The notes under the pieces are model-generated. The model saw nothing but the letters and a program-made list of their open reading frames with translations, had not been told where the DNA came from and ran no database searches. DNA of 64,000 nt from a virus. The DNA is taken from the IMG/VR virus record IMGVR_UViG_3300030333_002628, positions 1 through 64,000 of that record, one strand, 5' to 3'. Numbering within the stretch: the stretch's first letter is position 1; the number at the start of each line of letters is the position of its first letter. A program made the translations under genes and the position numbers. Below are positions 32,751-50,628 of this stretch, in pieces.

Positions 32751-32993
32751 TTACCAACCTTTACTATAAACGTAGTTCTGTAGGCTACGCATCTGACTCT
32801 TGGATAACCCCCAAGCCTCACCTACTGATTTACCTGTTAAACTATAACCACCAACAGACCAATCTATCCCAGTAGATAGAATAACTGCTACTACTCCATC
32901 ATCTTTCATTGCTTCTACTAACTTGGGCCATTCGTCCTTGTTTATCGCACGCGCATTAATGGTGTTCCTATGCCCACTTCTCCACCGCTTCAT
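32751..32993 (-). CDS. Small hypothetical protein, 80 aa
   Basis: Starts MKRWRSGHRNTINARAINKD and contains a central alpha/beta stretch (VVAVILSTGIDWSVGGYSLT) and a C-terminal HTH-like helix pair (SVGEAWGLSKSQMRSLQNYV). It overlaps the upstream Mom-like gene by four bases. The coupling suggests a job linked to that enzyme or the same regulon; no family recognised. Confidence 0.5.
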   Translation of the reverse strand: MKRWRSGHRNTINARAINKDEWPKLVEAMKDDGVVAVILSTGIDWSVGGYSLTGKSVGEAWGLSKSQMRSLQNYVYSKGW

Positions 32994-33637
32994 GTTGCTG
33001 CCCCCTTTGGGTATGATTCTACGGGATAGCGCAGACTCTTTAATGCTTTCTTTCTGAATCTCTTGTTTCCGCAGAGAAAAATATACCTATGTTTTCTAGG
33101 TCTCTCTTGCATATAGAATCTGTCACCATACTTCTCTCGGATTAACTTACCTCTGTTTTCATGCCCCCTAAATTCATCCGCTATTGTTTGGCTGTGTAGG
33201 TGTTCTAGTCCCTTTATCTTCCAATCAGTTCTCTTTGCACTTAAACCAGTATAGAGAAAATTCGTGGCTTGGTAGACAATACCTAGATGTTCTTGTGAAG
33301 TATCAGCATAAGAAATAACTATTGCGTCTTGTTCTTCCTTCAATAACCGCAAACTTGCACCGACAAGAATGCTGGCTTCATTATGTAGATTATTCTTTAA
33401 ACAAAGTCGGTTTAATTCTAACACTTGATGTTGGTAATCTTCCCCAGCCACGCCCTTCCTCAAGGTAGCGCTGAAAGGAGTTCCGTAAGTTACTACACCT
33501 ACTAATTCTAATGTGTCTAGTTTGATTAAACCGTAAGCGTAAGTAACACTAGGCCATCTCTTAGCATAATGGATATTTAATATGAAGTCTTCGCAATCAC
33601 TTCTTTTAACAGGTATTACATCGTATTCTTCACGCAT
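32990..33637 (-). CDS. Mom-like DNA base modification protein (GNAT fold), 215 aa
   Basis: It has the sequence pattern of phage Mom-family proteins: HYAKRWPSVTYAYGLI near the start, GVVTYGTPFSATLRKG, LELNRLCLKNN, ASILVGASLRLL. The signature is VISYADTSQEHLGIVYQATN, followed by FLYTGLS. Mom of phage Mu converts adenine in DNA to a carbamoylmethyl-type derivative that blocks restriction enzymes. This would protect viral DNA from host restriction. The start at 33637 (or 33640) is inferred; the longer frame begins inside the neighbour. Confidence 0.7.
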   Translation of the reverse strand: MREEYDVIPVKRSDCEDFILNIHYAKRWPSVTYAYGLIKLDTLELVGVVTYGTPFSATLRKGVAGEDYQHQVLELNRLCLKNNLHNEASILVGASLRLLKEEQDAIVISYADTSQEHLGIVYQATNFLYTGLSAKRTDWKIKGLEHLHSQTIADEFRGHENRGKLIREKYGDRFYMQERPRKHRYIFLCGNKRFRKKALKSLRYPVESYPKGAAT

Positions 33638-34259
33638 CATCCACAACCTCAAAATCAACGTCTTCTACTCTGGGCGCTCTCAAAGCCTGCATCCTGAATT
33701 CTACCTCATCTAACAATTGCGGGTTGTCTTTCAGAACATCAACAAGGACATGATTCATGTTGTTCATGTGAGTTTGTGCCAATAGGAATTGAGAGTCAAC
33801 ACCAATCTCTTTCTTTAACTGTGCGATTAACTTAATAGATGAGTTTGCTTGTCCTATTAATCTAGTCGCATCAGATACAAAGTCAGGGGTTATCATTCCA
33901 TCATTCTCCTTCCTTTCCTCCAGTTCATTCAAATAACCTTCAATCCTACGCACTATTCCTTCGGCGCTTGTCAAAGTATCAATCGACCTTTCTCTTGCCT
34001 CCTCTACCTCTGCTGCATCTCTTGGGTTGTATTCTAAATGTGCCTCCATGTGATTCATAACTGTGCCTTCGGGCCAGCCATGCTTCGCCTCAAGATAATC
34101 TGGAGTGACTTCTTCTGCTACTAATTGCCTCTCATAGTCAGCCCTATCCTTATGGTCGCAGAAGGGGCAACCACCATCTAAGACCCAACGGAGAACATCT
34201 ATAACAAACATATCGTTCTCATTGTGTAACCGTTGTTCTATCTCAATTCTCGATTTCAT
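33630..34259 (-). CDS. Zinc-containing helical protein, possible small terminase-like, 209 aa
   Basis: The N-terminal half has CPFCDH and an HTH-like stretch (VTPDYLEAKHGWPEGTVMNH followed by HLEY). The rest is coiled coil (IVRRIEGYLNELEERKENDG, SSIKLIAQLKKEIGVDSQFL). This layout of DNA-binding start plus oligomerising coil resembles small terminase subunits, but the large terminase lies 16 kb away, so the call is weak. A general DNA-binding role is equally possible. Confidence 0.4.
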   Translation of the reverse strand: MKSRIEIEQRLHNENDMFVIDVLRWVLDGGCPFCDHKDRADYERQLVAEEVTPDYLEAKHGWPEGTVMNHMEAHLEYNPRDAAEVEEARERSIDTLTSAEGIVRRIEGYLNELEERKENDGMITPDFVSDATRLIGQANSSIKLIAQLKKEIGVDSQFLLAQTHMNNMNHVLVDVLKDNPQLLDEVEFRMQALRAPRVEDVDFEVVDDA

Positions 34260-43249: not shown

Positions 43250-43262
43250 AAATCCCAGACAG

Positions 43263-43278
43263 CATACCCCTTAATAAA
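43263..43278 (-). promoter_or_regulatory. TTTATTAAGGGGTATG promoter box (43249 operon)
   Basis: Minus-strand box identical over 16 bases to that at 42199, starting 29 nt before the ATG at 43249. It marks the left edge of the divergent control region. Confidence 0.7.
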
Positions 43279-43289
43279 CCCACCGATTT

Positions 43290-43970
43290 ACCTAGTGTAG
43301 AAAGTAAACCAGCATTATTTAAAGTATGTATTATTCTAAGTCTTAGGATAGCGGGTAAAGTAGATTTGCTTTAGCGGATAAAGTAGGTCGGCGGAGGCGC
43401 TACCTACAAATTTCTTATCTACAAACCTTATCTACAAATGAAGTTATCTACAAATCACGTGGGTATAAGTAGTTTGCTAAGGGTTTATGTAGTGGTTTTC
43501 TTATCTACAAAGAAAAATCCATTGCGTGCGTTCTAAGGCCGGAAAACGAAATCCAGGTCTCAAGGTAGCATCGCCGGGTAGTTCGCGCTCAGATTGCACG
43601 CCAGACGATTTGTAGATAACACCTATAAACAAATTTGTTGATAGGTAAGTGTAGATTCTGCACTAATGGTTATTTTTGTAACCTAATGTAATGTATACAG
43701 CAGGTGTATTTTGCCACACTTAGTAACTTTTTAGTATTTAATGTTATTTTTGCACGAACTTTACCTTTTACACCAATTTTAATTTCAGATACCTAGTGCC
43801 TCTATCACATCAGGTAATTTTTCCTACATCTGGTGTTATAATTACACCGCCTCACTCGGCCCATGTATCTACAAAGTTGTAGATAATAAACTTAGCGGTT
43901 TACTTTTTGCACTAACTGTGGGCGCGAAGCGCAAGTGTGATTTCCAACACCTAGTGTAATTTTTGCACCG
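43290..43970. repeat. Second repeat family, consensus ACCTAGTGTAATTTTTGCAC
   Basis: Within the 804-nt divergent gap 43250-44053 are copies of ACCTAGTGTA and variants at 43290, 43681 (ACCTAATGTA), 43791 (ACCTAGTGCC) and 43949, often beside TTTTTGCAC or TTTTTGTA. Inverted forms such as ATCTGGTGTTATAATTACAC (about 43828) also occur. They are interspersed with the ATTTGTAGATAA half-sites and probably form binding sites for a different protein. Confidence 0.5.
43415..43511 (-). repeat. Half-site cluster A (TTATCTACAAAT orientation)
   Basis: Four copies at 43415, 43428, 43444 and 43501, all in the minus orientation, plus a lone plus-orientation copy at 43609. They face the leftward gene block. Close by are two copies of GCGGRTAAAGTAGRT at about 43352 and 43374. 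Confidence 0.7.
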
Positions 43971-44010
43971 CCCCCAGGCGCGTAGCGCCTACCTACAAAT
44001 TTGTAGATAA
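43866..44010 (+). repeat. Half-site cluster B with palindromic copies and GC hairpin
   Basis: ATCTACAAAGTTGTAGAT (43867-43884) is a palindrome with a two-base centre, and CTACAAATTTGTAG (about 43993-44006) is another. Between them is a GC-rich inverted repeat AGGCGC-GTA-GCGCCT (43976-43990). The last half-site ends 14 nt before the TATA-like box of the 44054 gene. Confidence 0.65.
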
Positions 44011-44023
44011 GGGGGGCGTGGGG

Positions 44024-44032
44024 TTAATATAG
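44024..44032 (+). promoter_or_regulatory. TATA-like box of the 44054 gene
   Basis: TTAATATAG begins 30 nt before the ATG at 44054 and 14 nt after the last half-site. Confidence 0.55.
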
Positions 44033-44053
44033 TAGGGGTGCGTAGGGTGAGAC

Positions 44054-44461
44054 ATGGCAATTGGCGGACATGGAACCATCAACCACTATACTGACGGTGA
44101 AACTAGAATAGTCATTAGACCACAACCTGTATTATACACGTTAAAGGAAGTGGTGGTAGGTATGTGGGACATTGACAAGACGACTGACTGGGATGACGAA
44201 GGTAATCAAACTGTTAAACTACACGAAACCCTGTGGCAAGGGACGATGGAGAGATACGGTAACAGGAAGGGTATGGTAGAATACCTATTAATTCACGTTT
44301 ACGAGAATGCTATCAGGAACCCAGATTGGTGTCCTACAATAAATACTAACTCAAGATATGACGAAATCCCCGATGGGTGCAGAGGTAGAATAGAAGACTT
44401 CGTTCTTAGAATAATGCCTACTCTACGTGGAGACAAGCACCCTCACAGGGAGGACGGCTGA
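44054..44461 (+). CDS. Hypothetical protein, first gene of the iteron island, 135 aa
   Basis: Starts MAIGGHGTINHYTDGETRIV; mixed fold with VVVGMWDIDKTTDWDDEGNQ and a helical part (MVEYLLIHVYENAIRNPDWC). No family recognised. Expression is likely leaderless from the box at 44024 and controlled by half-sites upstream. A T-rich terminator follows. A first-in-line gene next to the origin-like region is a candidate for the half-site-binding protein. Confidence 0.5.
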   Translation: MAIGGHGTINHYTDGETRIVIRPQPVLYTLKEVVVGMWDIDKTTDWDDEGNQTVKLHETLWQGTMERYGNRKGMVEYLLIHVYENAIRNPDWCPTINTNSRYDEIPDGCRGRIEDFVLRIMPTLRGDKHPHREDG

Positions 44462-44495
44462 AGCGACTCACCAGAGACGGAGGTATTTTGACAGT

Positions 44496-44541
44496 TATTT
44501 TATTTTTCTATTTTATTTTTTATTTTTCACAGATATTTTTC
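44496..44541 (+). terminator. T-rich terminator after the 44054 gene
   Basis: After CAGTTA a run of TTTTATTTTTC-type tracts continues for about 45 nt. T-runs are the established termination signal of archaeal RNA polymerase. The same CAGTTA or CCGTTA plus T-run layout follows the units ending at 45184 and 45790. Confidence 0.6.
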
Positions 44542-44601
44542 TTTGTAGATAACCTATAACCAAATTTGTAGATAAGGGCTTATCCACAAATTTGTAGATA
44601 A
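44542..44601 (+). repeat. Half-site cluster C, three copies
   Basis: TTTGTAGATAA at 44542, 44565 and 44591, all plus orientation; the last also has a weak inverted partner. Ends 14 nt before the TTCATAA box at 44615. Confidence 0.75.
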
Positions 44602-44614
44602 CCTGGCCGATGGG

Positions 44615-44621
44615 TTCATAA
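44615..44621 (+). promoter_or_regulatory. TTCATAA box of the 44644 unit
   Basis: TTCATAA starts exactly 29 nt before the ATG at 44644, the same distance as at 45341 and 49312. Confidence 0.6.
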
Positions 44622-44643
44622 CCTGGTAGGGGGTAGCGGTGGT

Positions 44644-44853
44644 ATGAGTGGCGAAGTAGACTGTCATGCAATACCAGAAGAACTAACTTGTGTCCTCTGT
44701 GGTTTACCGATTAAAACAGACTGGGCGGGATGGAAGTATGGGCATAATGCGTTACCTGTTAAAGTAGGTCGAGCCTGTGATGATTGTCAGATTACTGTTA
44801 TTCTACCTGCGAGAATAGGTATGATAATAGATACAGTAGGGGAGGAAGAATAA
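44644..44853 (+). CDS. Zinc-ribbon protein of a phage-wide small family, 69 aa
   Basis: CVLCGLPI, then GHNALPVKVGRACDDCQITV and ILPARIG; this matches a small conserved phage protein with GHNAxPVxxGRCCDxCN. Likely zinc-binding. First of three small Cys-containing genes in this unit. Confidence 0.6.
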   Translation: MSGEVDCHAIPEELTCVLCGLPIKTDWAGWKYGHNALPVKVGRACDDCQITVILPARIGMIIDTVGEEE

Positions 44854-44855
44854 CC

Positions 44856-45032
44856 ATGATTCCACATCAGGTTGTATGTGATGGGTGCGGGGAGACTCAC
44901 TTCCTAGATACTATAACAGAAGTAGTAGAATGGATGAGTGCCCACTACGATGCCTGTGATGACCCGAAGGTATACAAGAAACTCATAGTTAATCTAAAAG
45001 ATAAACTAGAATACGAAGGGAGGTTAGAATAA
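44856..45032 (+). CDS. Cysteine-containing microprotein, 58 aa
   Basis: Starts MIPHQVVCDGCGETHFLDTI two bases after the preceding stop, with GGAGG ahead; the longer frame from 44784 is rejected because it overlaps that gene. Helical after residue 20. Confidence 0.5.
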   Translation: MIPHQVVCDGCGETHFLDTITEVVEWMSAHYDACDDPKVYKKLIVNLKDKLEYEGRLE

Positions 45033-45034
45033 CC

Positions 45035-45184
45035 ATGAAATCATGTGAAGTAGACATTGATGACGATTGCGTTGGTGAGGCAGAATATCTGGTCTTGGGC
45101 TTGCACACACGAAGATATTGCTGTGGCCCTTGCCTAGAACACGCGCCGGGCGATGTAGATATTGTTAACATTAAAGTAATGTAG
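45035..45184 (+). CDS. Cysteine-rich microprotein, 49 aa
   Basis: CEVDIDDDC and YCCGPCLEH give a possible zinc site. GGAGG lies 14 bases before the ATG. Last gene of the unit, followed by a T-rich terminator. Confidence 0.5.
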   Translation: MKSCEVDIDDDCVGEAEYLVLGLHTRRYCCGPCLEHAPGDVDIVNIKVM

Positions 45185-45212
45185 TCAAAAAAACAGTTAA
45201 ACTAGGTCAGAT

Positions 45213-45244
45213 ATTTTAATTTTTATTTTATTTTTCATTTTTTC
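45213..45244 (+). terminator. T-rich terminator after the 44644 unit
   Basis: AACAGTTAAACTAGGTCAG is followed by TTTTAATTTTTATTTTATTT and further T-runs, as after 44461. Confidence 0.6.
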
Positions 45245-45259
45245 ACTCAAAAGGGGCGA

Positions 45260-45329
45260 AATTTGTAGATAAGCCCCCAATATACCCAAATTTGTAGATA
45301 AGAGCGCTATATACAAATTTGTAGATAAG
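45260..45329 (+). repeat. Half-site cluster D, three copies
   Basis: AATTTGTAGATAAG at 45260, 45289 and 45316, in plus orientation and spaced 29 and 27 nt. The last ends 12 nt before the TTCATAA box. Confidence 0.8.
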
Positions 45330-45340
45330 AGAGCGACAGG

Positions 45341-45347
45341 TTCATAA
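45341..45347 (+). promoter_or_regulatory. TTCATAA box of the 45370 unit
   Basis: TTCATAA begins 29 nt before the ATG at 45370. Confidence 0.6.
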
Positions 45348-45369
45348 GGTGGAGGGTGGTGGTGGTGTC

Positions 45370-45621
45370 ATGGCGAACTACCCAAGAGGGAAAAACACCG
45401 ATACAATAAACCTAACACCAAGTCCTAGCGGATTCTTCGATATGCTATGGCTCATTGCTACTTCAAGTGAAAATGTAGGAGACAGGGAGTATGCTAGAAG
45501 AACGCTTAAAGCAGGTTACATACGTGGTTTAGCAAGTATACCAGATGACCTAGAAGGTAGTATAACAGAAATGACAAGCGGGGAACCAATCGAAGATATG
45601 ATTCCTGACGAGAGGGAGTAA
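45370..45621 (+). CDS. Hypothetical protein, 83 aa
   Basis: MANYPRGKNTDTINLTPSPS, then a helical part (MLWLIATSSENVGDREYARR). The start at 45370 is chosen from its 29-nt distance to the TATA-like box; a Gly-rich upstream Met would lie inside the expected promoter. No family recognised. Confidence 0.5.
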   Translation: MANYPRGKNTDTINLTPSPSGFFDMLWLIATSSENVGDREYARRTLKAGYIRGLASIPDDLEGSITEMTSGEPIEDMIPDERE

Positions 45622-45622
45622 A

Positions 45623-45790
45623 ATGGCACTATCAAGAAAGCACTTCAGAGAAATGGCGAAGGCTTGCGCTCGCCTCCCTGATGATGATAACAAAACAGTT
45701 ATTGTAAACACGCTCGCTAAAATAAATGCTAACGCAAACCCCAGATTCCAGAGGGGGAGATTCCTAGCCGCTTGCTATAGGAAGGAGTGA
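45623..45790 (+). CDS. Small conserved phage-type protein, 55 aa
   Basis: MALSRKHFREMAKACARLPD, then NPRFQRGRFLAACYRKE. This resembles a small phage protein family ending RFxxxRFLxAC, of unknown role. One base after the previous stop, so co-transcribed. Confidence 0.55.
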   Translation: MALSRKHFREMAKACARLPDDDNKTVIVNTLAKINANANPRFQRGRFLAACYRKE

Positions 45791-45827
45791 CCGTTAAAGT
45801 AACTGGGATCGAAATAGTTTACCTAGT

Positions 45828-45870
45828 ATTTTATATTTTTATTTTACTTTTTATTTTTATTTTTTCTTTT
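45828..45870 (+). terminator. T-rich terminator after the 45370 unit
   Basis: GACCGTTAAAGTAACTGGGA, then about 40 nt of T-runs broken by single A. Third example of the same design in the island. Confidence 0.6.
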
Positions 45871-45871
45871 T

Positions 45872-46063
45872 ATTTGTAGATAATTTTTTATTTGTAGATA
45901 ACGGCTATCTACAAATTTGTAGATAGGAGGATGCTGCGATTCTTATCTACAAATATTACCTGGCGGCTTATCTACAAATTATTATCTACAAATCTGAGCC
46001 TGCCGCTTATCTACAAATATTCATCCCTGCTTATCTACAAATGGATTCACACTATCTACAAAT
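45872..46063. repeat. Half-site cluster E, about ten copies with a 22-bp perfect palindrome
   Basis: Plus-orientation copies at 45872 and 45890, a perfect palindrome CTATCTACAAATTTGTAGATAG (two 11-base arms, 45905-45926), then six minus-orientation copies at 45943, 45968, 45982, 46007, 46031 and 46053. The palindrome shows the full site is two half-sites meeting head to head. Together with the T-run and the leader it fills the gap 45791-46274. Confidence 0.85.
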
Positions 46064-46132
46064 GGCTCGGAAGGCCCAAAAATGGCCTAAAATAACGGTG
46101 ACTATAAGTAGCGGTGGCCTCTCACAGCACCT

Positions 46133-46223
46133 GCCGACTTGTCGGCCTACCGAAATCTGGCTGGGAACAGTCAGAAGAACCCGCGCATCCTGATGCGTTT
46201 ACAGCCCTGACAAAAAGGGGCTG
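46133..46223 (+). ncRNA. Structured 5' leader of the DUF932 gene (three hairpins)
   Basis: Three inverted repeats follow each other: GCCGA-CTTG-TCGGC (46133-46146), CGCATC-CT-GATGCG (46184-46197) and CAGCCC-N10-GGGCTG (46202-46223). The first has a CUUG tetraloop, known to be very stable. The candidate TATA box (ACTATAAG, about 46101) lies 170 nt before the ATG, so this unit, unlike its neighbours, would have a long leader. It may be a riboregulator or a separate small RNA. Confidence 0.45.
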
Positions 46224-46274
46224 AGGGGGACTTGACGCAGAAAGACGAGTCGGCGCTCTAAGGAGGAAAAACGA

Positions 46275-47816
46275 ATGGAAAACAGATATGTAGCCATGCG
46301 AACCATCCTACTAACCGCCCTGCTTCTCGCAGGGGCCGGAGTAGCGTCTGCCACAGATGACTCTGTGGTGGTCGAGAAGAACGCCGACATTGGGGGCAAC
46401 CTAGATGCCTGCTCAGAAGATCGAGTGGTTATCACTCAGGCAGCCCTCAGACTGACCGATGAGCCGACTGTGTGCCATCCTAACGCGGACTGGAAAGCCC
46501 GTAAGAGGAGGCGCACTCTGGCCGCCAACAGTAAGGCACAGAAGGGGGCGCGAGTCCCCAAGAGCCACAAGCGGAACGGAGAATACCCCATCCGCAAAAA
46601 CCTGTTGAATCGGCCCGCCGCCATGTCTGTCGCTGGCATTCAGCCAGAGTCAGGGATGAACGCGGAACAAGTGATTGAAGTCACCGGACTCGGAGACTGG
46701 CATTGCGAGAAGACCACGCAATATGCCCGAACCGGAGAAGTGTTGACGCTATACAATCAAACGTCTGAGGGACAGTTTGAGGCTGTTGAAATCCCCCAAT
46801 ATGAAGAAGTGGTGAACACCAAAGGCAACCTGCAAAGGCTGACCCGCAGAAGTGACACAAGGGTTCAATTCGGGCCTGTTGGAGACAATTACACCGTCCT
46901 CCAGCACTCCGATGCAATCCGAATGGTGCATGATGTGGTTGATGCCCTTGAACTGGACTGGGAGTATGTTGGGACTGTTGATAATGGTCGCAAAATGCAC
47001 GCAGCCCTACTCATGCCTGATGATGCTGCCTTCGCCCTGCCCGACTTCAATGACGGACAGGAGAAGTTACAGCAATACATCGGTATCACGAACCAGCATG
47101 ACGGGAAGGGGGCATTCTCCTTCTCGCAGTTCGTGATGAGGATATGGTGCTGGAATCAGTTCGTAGCCACATTGGGCGCAGTCGGGAACAAGGGTAAGTC
47201 AGCCAACGCTGATGTGTCCTTCCGAAAGACGTTCAGGCACAATCAGCACATGGAAGCGAACATCGCAAAGTGGTCGCAGGTCATGGCGCTGACAACCCAG
47301 CATAACAGGGCTTACATCGAACTGGTGGAAGAACTGCTGGATGTGCCGATGGATATGTCTGAGCGCATTAACTTCTACGTGAACCACTTGGGCCTCAAGG
47401 GGCATCAGAAGCGCGTAGAGGCGGACGGAACTAACCCTTACGGGCTATCCACCAAGGGCCAGATAAAACTAGACACGCTGCTAGACTTGGAGACACAGGA
47501 ACAGAACCAAGTCGGGCGCATGGATGGGACTGTCTGGCAGGCTGTTCAGGTGCTTCTTGACTACTACGACCACGAATACCTCTACGATAAGCAGGGGGAC
47601 GTTTCCTTGGCACGTGCAAAGGATTCGCTACAAGGTCGGGTGGCAAAGAGGAAGGTGCTAATCCAGAAGTGCGGATTGATGTCCATTCAGGACGAATCAG
47701 CATGGAAAGAGCAGGTGTCCTTCCACGCGCACCTAGTCGAGAAGGATGATGACCCAGAGGACGACCCAGAAGCAGAGGAGAACGCGCTTCTGGATGCGGC
47801 CCTAGAACTGGCCTAG
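46275..47816 (+). CDS. DUF932 family protein with apparent signal peptide, 513 aa
   Basis: Residues about 165-400 match the phage/plasmid DUF932 family: GDNYTVLQHSDAIRMVHDVV, DNGRKMHAALLMPDDAAF, QYIGITNQHDGKGAFSFSQF, RIWCWNQF. The function of that family is unsettled. The N-terminus reads MRTILLTALLLAGAGVASA (from residue 8), a textbook secretion signal with AxA cleavage site, followed by about 120 residues with a basic stretch (DWKARKRRRTLAANSKAQKG). AAGGAGG lies eight bases before the first ATG. Base composition is clearly richer in GC than the minus-strand genes, suggesting separate origin. Confidence 0.75.
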   Translation: MENRYVAMRTILLTALLLAGAGVASATDDSVVVEKNADIGGNLDACSEDRVVITQAALRLTDEPTVCHPNADWKARKRRRTLAANSKAQKGARVPKSHKRNGEYPIRKNLLNRPAAMSVAGIQPESGMNAEQVIEVTGLGDWHCEKTTQYARTGEVLTLYNQTSEGQFEAVEIPQYEEVVNTKGNLQRLTRRSDTRVQFGPVGDNYTVLQHSDAIRMVHDVVDALELDWEYVGTVDNGRKMHAALLMPDDAAFALPDFNDGQEKLQQYIGITNQHDGKGAFSFSQFVMRIWCWNQFVATLGAVGNKGKSANADVSFRKTFRHNQHMEANIAKWSQVMALTTQHNRAYIELVEELLDVPMDMSERINFYVNHLGLKGHQKRVEADGTNPYGLSTKGQIKLDTLLDLETQEQNQVGRMDGTVWQAVQVLLDYYDHEYLYDKQGDVSLARAKDSLQGRVAKRKVLIQKCGLMSIQDESAWKEQVSFHAHLVEKDDDPEDDPEAEENALLDAALELA

Positions 47817-47851
47817 CCCGGATCGAGTGAGTCCACTTCGGAACAACATAA

Positions 47852-47889
47852 GTCAGCAGGGGGGGCAGAGAATCGCCGCCCCTGTTGAC
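47852..47889 (+). terminator. Hairpin terminator after DUF932
   Basis: GTCAGCAGGGG (47852-47862) pairs with CCCCTGTTGAC (47879-47889) apart from one mismatch, followed closely by T-runs (GGTTTTTTTTCGGTTTTTT, about 47902-47920). It looks like an intrinsic terminator of bacterial type. Confidence 0.6.
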
Positions 47890-47924
47890 CCACTTTCTGC
47901 GCGGTTTTTTTTCGGTTTTTTCGC

Positions 47925-48252
47925 ATTTGTAGATAAGAAAATCCCATTTGTAGATAAGGATTTTGATTTTATTTGTAGATAAGATTTTTATTTGTAGATA
48001 AGATTTTGATTTTATTTGTAGATAAAAATTTGTAGATAAGAGGAATTTTTATTTGTAGATAATTTTTTGGGAAATTTGTAGATAAGAAAATTTGTGTATA
48101 AAAATTTGTAGATAAGAATTTGTATGTAATAATTTGTAGATAAAAATTTGTAGATAAGATGGCGTAGCCTAAATTTGTAGATAAGGCTAGTGCTGTAAAT
48201 TTGTAGATAAGAAGCCAGGTGAAAATTTGTAGATAGCCCGCTTATCTACAAT
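47925..48252 (+). repeat. Half-site cluster F, at least fourteen copies
   Basis: ATTTGTAGATAAG or ATTTGTAGATAA at 47925, 47946, 47971, 47990, 48014, 48028, 48051, 48074, 48104, 48132, 48146, 48173, 48199 and 48225, all plus orientation, 14-30 nt apart. Three decayed copies lie between or after them (48090, 48117, 48242). It is the largest array and occupies nearly all of the gap 47817-48286. Confidence 0.9.
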
Positions 48253-48258
48253 TATTGC

Positions 48259-48265
48259 TTATAGG
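48259..48265 (+). promoter_or_regulatory. TATA-like box of the 48287 unit
   Basis: TTATAGG begins 28 nt before the ATG at 48287, directly after the repeat array. Confidence 0.5.
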
Positions 48266-48286
48266 CAGATACCCATTCCGCTATTC

Positions 48287-48409
48287 ATGGCAAACGGAAA
48301 CAAGCCTACGAAGCACAGCCAGAAACCGCCCAGAGTTACCTTCCTGATGGAAGTGACCTTCGATGAGCAGGGTTGCACCCTGCAAATCTTCGATGTGAGG
48401 AGGGTCTGA
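48287..48409 (+). CDS. Microprotein, 40 aa
   Basis: MANGNKPTKHSQKPPRVTFL, then MEVTFDEQGCTLQIFDVRRV; a basic disordered start followed by a beta hairpin. It ends one base before the next gene. No family recognised. Confidence 0.5.
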   Translation: MANGNKPTKHSQKPPRVTFLMEVTFDEQGCTLQIFDVRRV

Positions 48410-48410
48410 A

Positions 48411-48848
48411 ATGGATAAGGACGCGCCGATATTCCGAGGAGAGAAGATCGAAATTCCTCAGCACATGGTCGAAGACTACCTTCACATTCTGGAACTTGGC
48501 TACGGCAACCCCCACAGCCGAAACCCAGATGATACCGAGAAAATAGACGCTCTACGCATCCTCTTGGGCAGAATGACAATCCAAGAAGAGGCAATTCAAG
48601 AACTCTGCTCGGAAGTATTCGACAACCCCAACAGACACCCGAAACTCTACGAGAATGAGGAGGATATGAGGCACTACGACCTTAAGCCATTCACCGACCT
48701 ATGGCTAATGTATGCGAGTGATTCCAAACTCTACGCATCACAGGGAACCCTAACAGACGCAGCACTTGAGGCAGTTAAGGAATACGAGCCAGAGAGCGAC
48801 ATTGAGGCCCGATTTGCCGCAATGGTTCAGAGGGGAGGGGGTTATTGA
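48411..48848 (+). CDS. Hypothetical acidic helical protein, 145 aa
   Basis: Helical and acidic: DYLHILELGYGNPHSRNPDD, ILLGRMTIQEEAIQELCSEV, LTDAALEAVKEYEPESDIEA. GGAGG precedes the ATG. No family recognised. GC-rich like the DUF932 gene, unlike the minus-strand genes. Confidence 0.55.
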   Translation: MDKDAPIFRGEKIEIPQHMVEDYLHILELGYGNPHSRNPDDTEKIDALRILLGRMTIQEEAIQELCSEVFDNPNRHPKLYENEEDMRHYDLKPFTDLWLMYASDSKLYASQGTLTDAALEAVKEYEPESDIEARFAAMVQRGGGY

Positions 48849-49025
48849 ATGACGGAATTGAGAATTGGTCTAATTACTTCCCGCTACCGAGTTTCCCATC
48901 CTCAGATTCGACATGACCCAGAGATGGCGGAGAGGGTCAAGAAATTCTTGGCAGAGAAGCAGAAGGAAGACCGAGATCGAATGTGGGCCAGATTCGCAGA
49001 GGAGTTAGACGGACTATTATCTTAG
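48849..49025 (+). CDS. Small helical basic protein, 58 aa
   Basis: MTELRIGLITSRYRVSHPQI, then a charged helix (AERVKKFLAEKQKEDRDRMW). It starts at the base after the previous stop. A hairpin terminator follows. Confidence 0.5.
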   Translation: MTELRIGLITSRYRVSHPQIRHDPEMAERVKKFLAEKQKEDRDRMWARFAEELDGLLS

Positions 49026-49034
49026 AAATTCTAC

Positions 49035-49073
49035 GGTGGCGGGGGTGTTTCCGTTCAATTTTCCCCCGCTACC
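49035..49073 (+). terminator. Hairpin terminator after the 48287 unit
   Basis: GGTGGCGGGGG (49035-49045) pairs with CCCCCGCTACC (49063-49073), an 11-bp GC-rich stem with one G-T pair and a 17-nt loop, followed by AAATTTTTCC. Confidence 0.6.
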
Positions 49074-49091
49074 AAATTTTTCCAGGCTACG

Positions 49092-49307
49092 ATTTGTAGA
49101 TAATTTTTGAGGCTACGATTTGTAGATAAGGCCAGAATTTGTAGATAAGAATTTGTAGATAAGAATTTTAATTTGTAGATAATTTTTTCTTTTTTTATTT
49201 GTAGATAGGCGAAAATTTGTAGATAGGGGGCCAGGCCAGGATCGGCGGCCAAAATCGGAAAAAAATCCTGCCTGGAAAATCGGCTGAATCCGTCCTTTGT
49301 AGATAGG
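49092..49307 (+). repeat. Half-site cluster G, eight copies
   Basis: Copies at 49092, 49118, 49137, 49151, 49171, 49197, 49215 and 49295; the last three end TAG rather than TAA. The final copy ends about 5 nt before the TTCATAA box. With the terminator it accounts for the gap 49026-49340. Confidence 0.85.
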
Positions 49308-49311
49308 ACTA

Positions 49312-49318
49312 TTCATAA
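49312..49318 (+). promoter_or_regulatory. TTCATAA box of the 49341 gene
   Basis: TTCATAA begins 29 nt before the ATG at 49341, as at 44615 and 45341. Confidence 0.6.
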
Positions 49319-49340
49319 GGGGCAACACTATCCCAGAGCC

Positions 49341-50072
49341 ATGCAATCCGGCAATGGAATGTTAGAAGTAGTAAAATTGAACGCAAAAATAGGGGCTGAA
49401 ACGGCAGCCTTCCTCAGAGAGAACGGCATGGTGCTAACTAGGGCACAGAACGCCATTCTAGTGCCAGAGGAGGCCGCCCACATGATGCTCTCGATTGAGG
49501 GGCAGATTCAGGCCGTAAACTGGGCCAGAGAGACCCAGAAGAACGGCCTAACGCCAGCAGAGAGGCCCGACTGCGAATGCGGGGGACACCTGAACGCAGA
49601 TTACGGCCTATCGGACAGAATTCCGACCTGCTCGCGCTGCCAGACCCCCAGATTCGCGGGGACTCGCTCAATCAGGGAGAAGGTCAGCCAGACCTACGAG
49701 CCAAGCCTGTCAGACCACGTAGACGGGTTCACCTTGGTGATTAGGGACGAGCCAAAGAGAAGGGCGCTCAAGAAGACCCAGAGCGAAAGGGGCGGCCCTT
49801 GGGAGACCCAGACCCTATTCTGTGGGGCAGCAGTCCGACTAAGGGGCTTCGGGGAACAACTGTGGGCCTTCACAGACAGCACAGGCCGCTATTGCGGTGA
49901 GGGGCTTCTATGGGCCTTCGGCGTGTCCCCTAGTGGCATAACGGGCATTGTGGCAATCCACCCAGCCCAGACCGCGCAGTTCGTAGGCAGGGTTCAGATG
50001 ACAGCCGACCCCTTCGACCTACTAACCACAGTAGACGCACCCAGCGCACTAATCCGCACCTACTGGGGCTAG
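49341..50072 (+). CDS. Hypothetical zinc-site protein, 243 aa
   Basis: Helical N-terminal 75 residues (ETAAFLRENGMVLTRAQNAI) lead into a Cys site (CECGGHLNADYGLSDRIPTC and a further C). A beta-rich C-terminal half follows (WETQTLFCGAAVRLRGFGEQ, GLLWAFGVSPSGITGIVAIH). No family recognised. GC-rich and last gene of the island. Confidence 0.55.
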   Translation: MQSGNGMLEVVKLNAKIGAETAAFLRENGMVLTRAQNAILVPEEAAHMMLSIEGQIQAVNWARETQKNGLTPAERPDCECGGHLNADYGLSDRIPTCSRCQTPRFAGTRSIREKVSQTYEPSLSDHVDGFTLVIRDEPKRRALKKTQSERGGPWETQTLFCGAAVRLRGFGEQLWAFTDSTGRYCGEGLLWAFGVSPSGITGIVAIHPAQTAQFVGRVQMTADPFDLLTTVDAPSALIRTYWG

Positions 50073-50108
50073 TCAAGCCAAGATCGAAAGGCTAGAGGAA
50101 AACGTAAG

Positions 50109-50183
50109 GTCTGGGGGGGCAGAAGTCCCCCCAGACTGGGCAGATTTTCGCAGGGTCGCCACCCTGATTTTTTTGATTTTTTT
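50109..50183 (+). terminator. Double intrinsic terminator at the end of the island
   Basis: First hairpin: GTCTGGGGGG (50109) with CCCCCCAGAC (50127), a perfect 10-bp stem and 8-nt loop. Second: CAGGGT-CGCC-ACCCTG (50151-50166), a perfect 6-bp stem and tetraloop followed by ATTTTTTTGATTTTTTT. This has the form of a bacterial Rho-independent terminator. It separates the island from the converging terminase block. Confidence 0.75.
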
Positions 50184-50241
50184 CCCAAAAATTTTCATTA
50201 CTACGACTTACCCTGGGGCTACCGGGTCGAAAAATTTTTTA

Positions 50242-50628
50242 CTAAATTTTTGAAATGGGCTTTATTAACTTCCAATGCTTGATGTTATTCTTTTTGGTTG
50301 TCAGAACTTCGCCGTTTTTCTCACATATACGCATGAATGCACCTACGGAATACCCATTCAATTGAGTCCACTTCGGAGGAACCTTCTTGTTGGCGGCTTC
50401 GGCAATTTGTGATGATGTCAACCACTCGCCTTCTGCGAAATAAGAAGACAAAGCCCACTCTATTGCTTCCGCAAATACCGTTCTCTTATTGTTGGGGCCG
50501 TGTTTTCTAACCTTGCGGTCTTGTAACTCAAACTTCTTACCAGTTCTCCTATTGCGAGTCTGGCGCTTATTACGCCCACCGTATGGCCCCTTACCCCACT
50601 TACCTGCCACGTATAACCCTCCCGCCAA
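50242..50628 (-). CDS. Basic winged-helix-like protein, 128 aa
   Basis: A strongly basic start (YGGRNKRQTRNRRTGKKFEL), then AEAIEWALSSYFAEGEWLTS, SQIAEAANKK and YSVGAFMRICEKNGEVLTTK as a winged helix. Downstream of and overlapping the large terminase gene by 28 bases. It could be a DNA-binding partner of the terminase (small-subunit role) or one of the virus's wHTH regulators. Confidence 0.5.
   Translation of the reverse strand: MAGGLYVAGKWGKGPYGGRNKRQTRNRRTGKKFELQDRKVRKHGPNNKRTVFAEAIEWALSSYFAEGEWLTSSQIAEAANKKVPPKWTQLNGYSVGAFMRICEKNGEVLTTKKNNIKHWKLIKPISKI

Follow-up and report, generated by a model that had tools for sequence, protein, structure and literature searches.

Half-sites arrayed ahead of the promoters of an accessory-gene island change their sequence between closely related archaeal viruses, and they do so together with a single virus-encoded protein. 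The stretch concerned, hereafter the window, comprises bases 1-64000 of the IMG/VR virus record IMGVR_UViG_3300030333_002628 (71265 bases in all), which derives from a tailed archaeal virus of marine type; its island occupies 43250-50241, between a minus-strand operon (head 43249) and the terminase block. The protein, termed ZnR, is a fast-diverging, Cys-rich and Zn-ribbon-like polypeptide of 243-468 amino acids (aa) that adjoins F1 and the terminase in array-bearing islands. Comparison with relatives shows the architecture of the island, a leaderless promoter geometry, distinct half-site dialects, the turnover of units and block replacement with ZnR; it indicates that the whole island is replaceable as a block, the half-site being re-typed along with this one protein. 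Probably, the island is controlled by ZnR as a regulator whose alleles would differ in half-site specificity and be exchanged as a block.

Half-site arrays and their dialects

In the window, the half-site TTTGTAGATA is present in 45 copies within the island (dinucleotide shuffles give a mean of 0.01 and a maximum of 1) and in a single copy elsewhere, i.e. 45 of 46 copies are in the island. All 45 are intergenic and stand ahead of small genes; none is found inside the 11 plus-strand genes, which form six units and make 63% of the island coding.

Relatives were collected by terminase-anchored scans of IMG/VR, yielding 44 and then 80 loci, partly overlapping and part of 286 IMG/VR terminase relatives; the loci are related to one another and many are fragments. 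The terminase was taken as anchor because scans using ZnR alignments gave just four loci each. A search of IMG/VR for the half-site pair pattern returned mostly single chance-like matches besides two relatives of the same dialect. Of the 50 islands that measured at least 2.5 kb, de novo motif search of the terminase-flanking DNA revealed arrays in 33; the remaining relatives had no such half-site arrays beside the terminase. The arrays are located at the same genomic place as in the window, but the half-site sequence differs: at least 12 dialects can be distinguished, essentially one per genome, for example ATTTGTAGATAAG (window, L002, L003), ATTTGTTGGTAAG (L004, L005), ATTTGTAGCATAG (L006, L044), ATTTGTAGC (L010), TTTTGTAGGATA (L011, L013), ATTTGTAGTAG (L014-L016), GTTTTGTAACG (L033, L036, L130, L134), ATTTGTTACCG (L038), ACTTCGTAGG (L027, L029, L040), ATTTTGTAGGGTT (the L144 group), GTTTTGTAG[GT]CA (L150, L156, L161), ATTTTGTAGTCTAG (L159) and AATTGTAACC (L160). 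Cross-counting of the dialect words between the genomes of the first locus set gives an essentially diagonal picture. The islands of the array-less relatives L121, L122, L022, L023 and L165 carry AAAGTATATATACTTT-type palindromes (TATATA-type), perhaps the sites of a different regulator.

The dialect follows ZnR

In near-identical backbones (terminase 96-99%, F1 82-100% identity), ZnR (21-32%) and the dialect switch together. The pair L149/L150 is 99% identical in the terminase, 100% in F1 and 26% in ZnR, and its dialects differ; the same holds for L013/L014 (terminase 96%, F1 84%, ZnR 27-30%). In L014/L016 the dialect is the same at a ZnR identity of 71-73%, with the terminase at 91% and F1 at 57-59%. 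L144 and L156 are 96.6% identical in DNA over 4685 nucleotides (nt), and this match ends between F1 and ZnR; no similarity is left across ZnR and the arrays, and on the far side it reappears in weaker form. When dialects are permuted within backbone clusters, the similarity gap amounts to 0.63 for ZnR (p 5e-5), 0.02 for F1 and 0.004 for the terminase. As a reader of the sites, F1 was rejected: it occurs with and without arrays and is identical across different dialects.

The presence of ZnR parallels that of the arrays. Under an explicit array rule and among islands of at least 2.5 kb, all 33 array-bearing islands have a ZnR-superfamily gene, against 0 of the 17 that lack arrays. A profile built from the first locus set found ZnR in the array-bearing loci L113, L130 and L134 of the second set and had no match in its array-less islands of at least 2.5 kb. 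Within the superfamily, profile comparison relates families F5, F3 and F24 (E 1e-6 to 1e-7), and the wider groups A-D are linked by hhalign (E 2e-4 to 6e-4 for A-B, A-C and B-D) and, for B-D, by hmmsearch (down to 1e-8). Comparison of ZnR with Pfam, PHROG, PDB sequences and INPHARED gave no match. Upstream of ZnR in L044, L156, L159, L013 and L135, whose islands are otherwise different, a stretch like CCCCGAAATTAGCC...CACTTTTTT recurs.

As the exchanged blocks measure ~4 kb and comprise several genes, and as binding by ZnR is a prediction, another gene of the block or a host protein might read the sites while ZnR merely travels along. This is distinctly unlikely in our view: ZnR is the sole family seen to occupy the same end in all islands with arrays, and it is missing where arrays are missing; identical F1 accompanies different dialects in L149/L150, and a host reader would not explain dialects that differ per virus.

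Several points nevertheless weigh against ZnR as the regulator: (i) all evidence is comparative and drawn from sequence; (ii) the other genes of the exchanged block change too, and L036 and L130 keep one dialect at a ZnR identity of just 40%; (iii) owing to the kinship of the loci, the Fisher p-value overstates independence, and by our count there are four or five independent switches; (iv) groups B-D were initially noticed by eye among array-bearing loci, which makes the 33/33 count partly post hoc, and the links between the groups are modest; (v) AlphaFold predicts the structure of ZnR with low confidence (pLDDT 50 and 60), and a fold search with the models had no match; (vi) several types encode ZnR on the same strand as the terminase genes, with no array ahead of it.

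Promoter geometry and proposed mechanism

Promoters were pooled from the genes directly following arrays in 14 islands and compared with other ATGs, gene starts being predicted. Of 91 array-head genes, 49 have a TATA-like box whose start falls between -32 and -26, versus 14 of 445 control ATGs (p 2e-31), and base -1 of the boxed array heads is C or T in 49 of 49. A box at approximately -28 combined with a pyrimidine/purine step at the start codon is the pattern predicted for leaderless archaeal transcripts, and leaderless transcription driven by a promoter of archaeal type would best account for the box-to-ATG distance of 29 nt.

The first-pass annotation of the window had placed TTCATAA exactly 29 nt ahead of three ATGs and further boxes 28-30 nt ahead of two more, and all five are in place (Table 1). 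On the plus strand TTCATAA occurs just seven times in 64 kb, these three included; the chance of finding it at a common offset in three of six heads is ~8e-10, with any offset from -45 to -15 allowed. The unit order that the annotation described, from half-sites through the box to a terminator, recurs as stated except at the DUF932 gene (46275), where a box at -29 is missing (the nearest TATA-like sequence is CTATAAG at ~46102) and the gene instead has a Shine-Dalgarno (SD) sequence and a leader of ~150 nt that is predicted to be structured. Nor is the box peculiar to the island, since the head of the minus-strand operon (43249) also has one (TTTATTAA) at 29 nt. Independent promotion and insulation of each unit may be presumed from this layout; several downstream cistrons have SD-like sequences. 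The DUF932 leader folds much better than its shuffles in the window (46118-46274; z -3.9 to -4.7), in L002 (1967-2215; -6.1) and in L003 (4796-5046; -3.9), the latter two being islands downstream of the terminase in reverse complement, and weakly so in L004/L005; it is possibly a cis-regulatory RNA, with no match in Rfam.

The spacing between the TATA box and the nearest site is fixed within a dialect: it measures 22 nt in 11 of 11 promoters of the TTTTGTAAC viruses L033, L036 and L113, 7 nt in 7 of 7 promoters of L044, where the site has the opposite orientation. Eight promoters of L014/L016/L019 have a spacing of 7-8 nt, and three promoters of the window one of 24-25 nt. In the 22-25 nt classes, the site is situated upstream of the expected position of the transcription factor B recognition element (BRE). 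In archaea, binding upstream of the BRE is typical of activators, and most repressors occlude the promoter or the start (PMC5512572); rigidly spaced sites upstream of the BRE thus favour, rather than prove, activation, and ZnR is somewhat more likely to be an activator than a repressor.

Each unit consists of an asymmetric half-site array (single sites or dyads) and a TATA box, followed by one gene or a small operon and by a terminator, and the units most likely operate in the following manner. Virus-made ZnR presumably recognizes the half-sites of its own dialect, whether single or paired as dyads, and would control the island promoters as a transcription factor that sets their activity; as an activator, it would draw in TBP/TFB from a position immediately upstream of the BRE. 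Transcripts would begin at the ATG without a leader and stop at T-rich tracts. With one matched regulator-site pair per genome, a virus that shares a cell with a relative would regulate its own island and not that of the other, which may be the purpose of the dialects. Block exchange would change regulator and sites at once, and the similarity of arrays within a dialect might let units be gained and lost by recombination, perhaps between arrays. More tentatively still, and with some doubt on our part, ZnR may represent a new DNA-binding family that forms an allelic lock-and-key system of at least 12 specificities, several of them in near-identical backbones; exchanged as a block, it would make the accessory regulons of co-infecting relatives either orthogonal or mutually exclusive and would correspond, in archaea, to phage heteroimmunity without lysogeny.

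Alternatively, ZnR could be an immunity-type repressor, the arrays its operators or stoperators, and the dialects heteroimmunity types, as in L5-like mycobacteriophages and SSV1 F55. Dozens of asymmetric intergenic sites per genome, mostly of one orientation in the window, would agree with this, as would a site consensus that co-varies with the candidate regulator and a pair that is swapped in constant backbones; the stoperators of the L5 clade behave likewise (PMC6550527), and F55 represses at tandem repeats (PMC5569661). However, the sites are confined to the island with none in genes, and they lie upstream of the TATA box at a rigid distance, not on the BRE or start. Moreover, no phage-type integrase (PF00589) was found in the four array-bearing records of 67-72 kb searched, the window's record included, and the PolB and RFC-like genes suggest a lytic life. 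We consider a repressor of this type unlikely, albeit a serious candidate.

Organization of the island

The features of the island are compiled in Table 1. T-rich tracts number eight on the plus strand of the 64 kb, four of them directly after unit ends and a fifth within an array (49172-49210), so that four units have a T-rich tract as terminator candidate, and the unit ending at 49025 a GC-rich inverted repeat. A search of the island with Rfam gave no credible known RNA. The divergent control region (43640-43990 and upstream of 43249) contains a second repeat type, ACACCTAGTGTAA and TTTTTGCAC, which also occurs in relatives both with and without half-site arrays.

Table 1. Features of the island and its borders (window coordinates)
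Feature	Position	Strand	Remarks
TATA-like box TTTATTAA	43271..43278	-	29 nt before minus-operon ATG 43249
Half-site array, 8 sites	43397..43647		Between divergent minus operon and island; position weight matrix scan
Half-site array, 4 sites incl. dyads	43862..44013		Upstream of unit 1
TATA-like box TTAATATA	44024..44031	+	30 nt before ATG 44054
Unit 1, g1, 135 aa, unknown family	44054..44461	+	L002/L003 versions 54-56% identical
T-rich tract, terminator-like	44493..44545	+	After unit 1
Half-site array, 4 sites	44539..44604		Unit 2
TATA-like box TTCATAA	44615..44621	+	29 nt before ATG 44644
Unit 2, small genes g2-g4	44644..45184	+	44644-44853, 44856-45032, 45035-45184
T-rich tract	45210..45251	+	After unit 2
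Half-site array, 4 sites	45259..45331		Unit 3
TATA-like box TTCATAA	45341..45347	+	29 nt before ATG 45370
Unit 3, g5 and g6	45370..45790	+	45370-45621, 45623-45790
T-rich tract	45826..45897	+	After unit 3, reaching into next array
Half-site array, 10 sites, mostly minus orientation	45870..46065		Upstream of DUF932 gene
Predicted structured leader of DUF932 gene	46118..46274	+	z -3.9 to -4.7
Unit 4, DUF932 protein, 513 aa	46275..47816	+	PF06067, phrog_1221; has SD
T-rich tract	47905..47932	+	After unit 4
Half-site array, 17 sites, 16 plus-oriented	47923..48255		Largest array
TATA-like box TTATA	48259..48263	+	28 nt before ATG 48287
Unit 5, g8-g10	48287..49025	+	48287-48409, 48411-48848, 48849-49025
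GC-rich inverted repeat, terminator-like	49035..49073	+	Arms 49035-49045/49063-49073; by eye
Half-site array, 8 sites, all plus-oriented	49090..49309		Upstream of ZnR
TATA-like box TTCATAA	49312..49318	+	29 nt before ATG 49341
ZnR, 243 aa, Cys-rich, proposed site-specific regulator	49341..50072	+	C78, C80, C97, C100
F1, small winged-helix-like protein	50242..50628	-	Adjoins terminase

The repeats are situated between divergent gene blocks, and the cumulative GC skew has its minimum near 44 kb, as might be expected if the arrays were iterons of a replication origin, ZnR the initiator and the dialects incompatibility-like origin types; a cognate initiator would co-vary with its iterons as well. 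Yet the sites are dispersed over 7 kb, before each unit and at a fixed distance from the TATA boxes, the skew tracks the gene strand, and array-less relatives do without ZnR, all of which makes an origin quite improbable.

Gain and loss of units

That the island is a platform for gene cassettes, as had been proposed from the window alone, is borne out by its relatives. In comparison with L002 and L003 (same dialect, terminase 89%), one additional unit of array, promoter, genes and terminator is present in the window (44539-45251, g2-g4). Conversely, F13 heads a unit of its own in L003-L005, and the window's counterpart of the L003 unit is at most a distantly similar second cistron, the weakly similar g6. 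L014 and L016 have their arrays in common and little gene content, and L014 contains two copies each of F6 and F15. Members of families F13, F8, F37, F27, F11 and F81 are also present in islands that have other dialects, with ~31-56% protein identity for the small families shared across dialects; relatives of g5 are found in L002 and L003 as well as in L044, which has a different dialect. Genes therefore cross dialect boundaries, and the arrays match the resident dialect. Swapped genes between conserved clusters had been expected; the genes are indeed swapped, but the clusters are not conserved in sequence, and fixed conserved clusters had to be rejected because the half-sites are re-typed between relatives.

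Array-array similarity could mediate such gain and loss, and short array matches make up much of the homology between otherwise different islands, so the arrays might be conceived as selfish repeats or recombination tracts devoid of a regulatory role. Given their rigid promoter spacing, their exclusion from genes and their tight link to one protein, we deem this very improbable. Between 46000 and 50000 of the window, the G+C content is ~48-53%, compared to ~41% in most of the window, which suggests that the part from DUF932 to ZnR is of recent foreign origin.

Comparison with known systems

In the exchange of lambdoid immunity regions, regulator and operators are replaced as one block in a constant backbone, similar to what is seen here; the islands differ in having a regulon of numerous separate accessory promoters in place of the two lytic ones, and in belonging to a different domain of life. 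Ptr2 and EarA are host regulators of other protein families with few targets and are not known to show allelic switching. They resemble the present system in having several short sites directly upstream of the BRE/TATA (PMC5512572).

The L5-like (Cluster A) mycobacteriophages have many short asymmetric sites for one regulator, and their consensus varies between related phages, tracking the regulator (PMC6550527); likewise, tens of asymmetric sites per genome co-vary here in consensus with the candidate regulator ZnR. In contrast to L5, the virus is archaeal, an integrase was not found in the records searched, and the sites cluster in one island (45 of 46 in the window) before leaderless TATA promoters, whereas L5 stoperators are genome-wide and mostly away from promoters; the L5 repressor is a helix-turn-helix protein unrelated to the Cys-rich ZnR. 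SSV1 F55, acting on ATAGATAG tandem repeats, is likewise an archaeal virus regulator at repeated short sites of viral promoters (PMC5569661). It is, however, a ribbon-helix-helix protein of 6 kDa whose few sites overlap the start or BRE, as opposed to a Cys-rich protein of 243-468 aa and ~10-80 sites upstream of the TATA box.

Very little is known about how uncultured marine archaeal viruses regulate their genes, and the islands offer a concrete virus-encoded regulator candidate, a readable operator code in dozens of genomes, natural swaps in near-identical backbones and a simple binding prediction. If the proposed role of ZnR is true, the switching of allelic regulator-operator pairs that is familiar from temperate phages has also arisen in archaeal viruses that lack an integrase, by means of a different protein family. 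The island is an accessory-gene platform in which host-interaction genes may occur.

The virus and its host

The window encodes a terminase, a portal, tail proteins, PolB and a chaperonin, as well as ERCC4-, RFC- and Mom-like proteins. Among the best-listed matches of PolB are haloarchaeal tailed viruses such as HF1/HF2 (~25% identity); these matches, together with the TATA-type promoters, make an archaeal host well supported. A host among the Poseidoniales is likely, not proven, and no terminase relative was confirmed among GTDB genome contigs. Magrovirales and other tailed viruses of Poseidoniales (PMC12999244, PMC13108676) are of the same marine tailed archaeal type, and magroviruses have PolB and replication and structural blocks on opposite strands. 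The record, which carries PolB, chaperonin, RFC-like and ERCC4 genes, measures 71 kb, against 87-110 kb for magrovirus genomes. Such arrays were not found described in the open-licence papers on these viruses that were searched. The relative G001 has terminal repeats at 72 kb. Finally, the gene at 32990-33658 of the window (minus strand) strongly matches Mom, a family of DNA-modification proteins (PF25680, 5.7e-39), which suggests that the virus DNA is modified.

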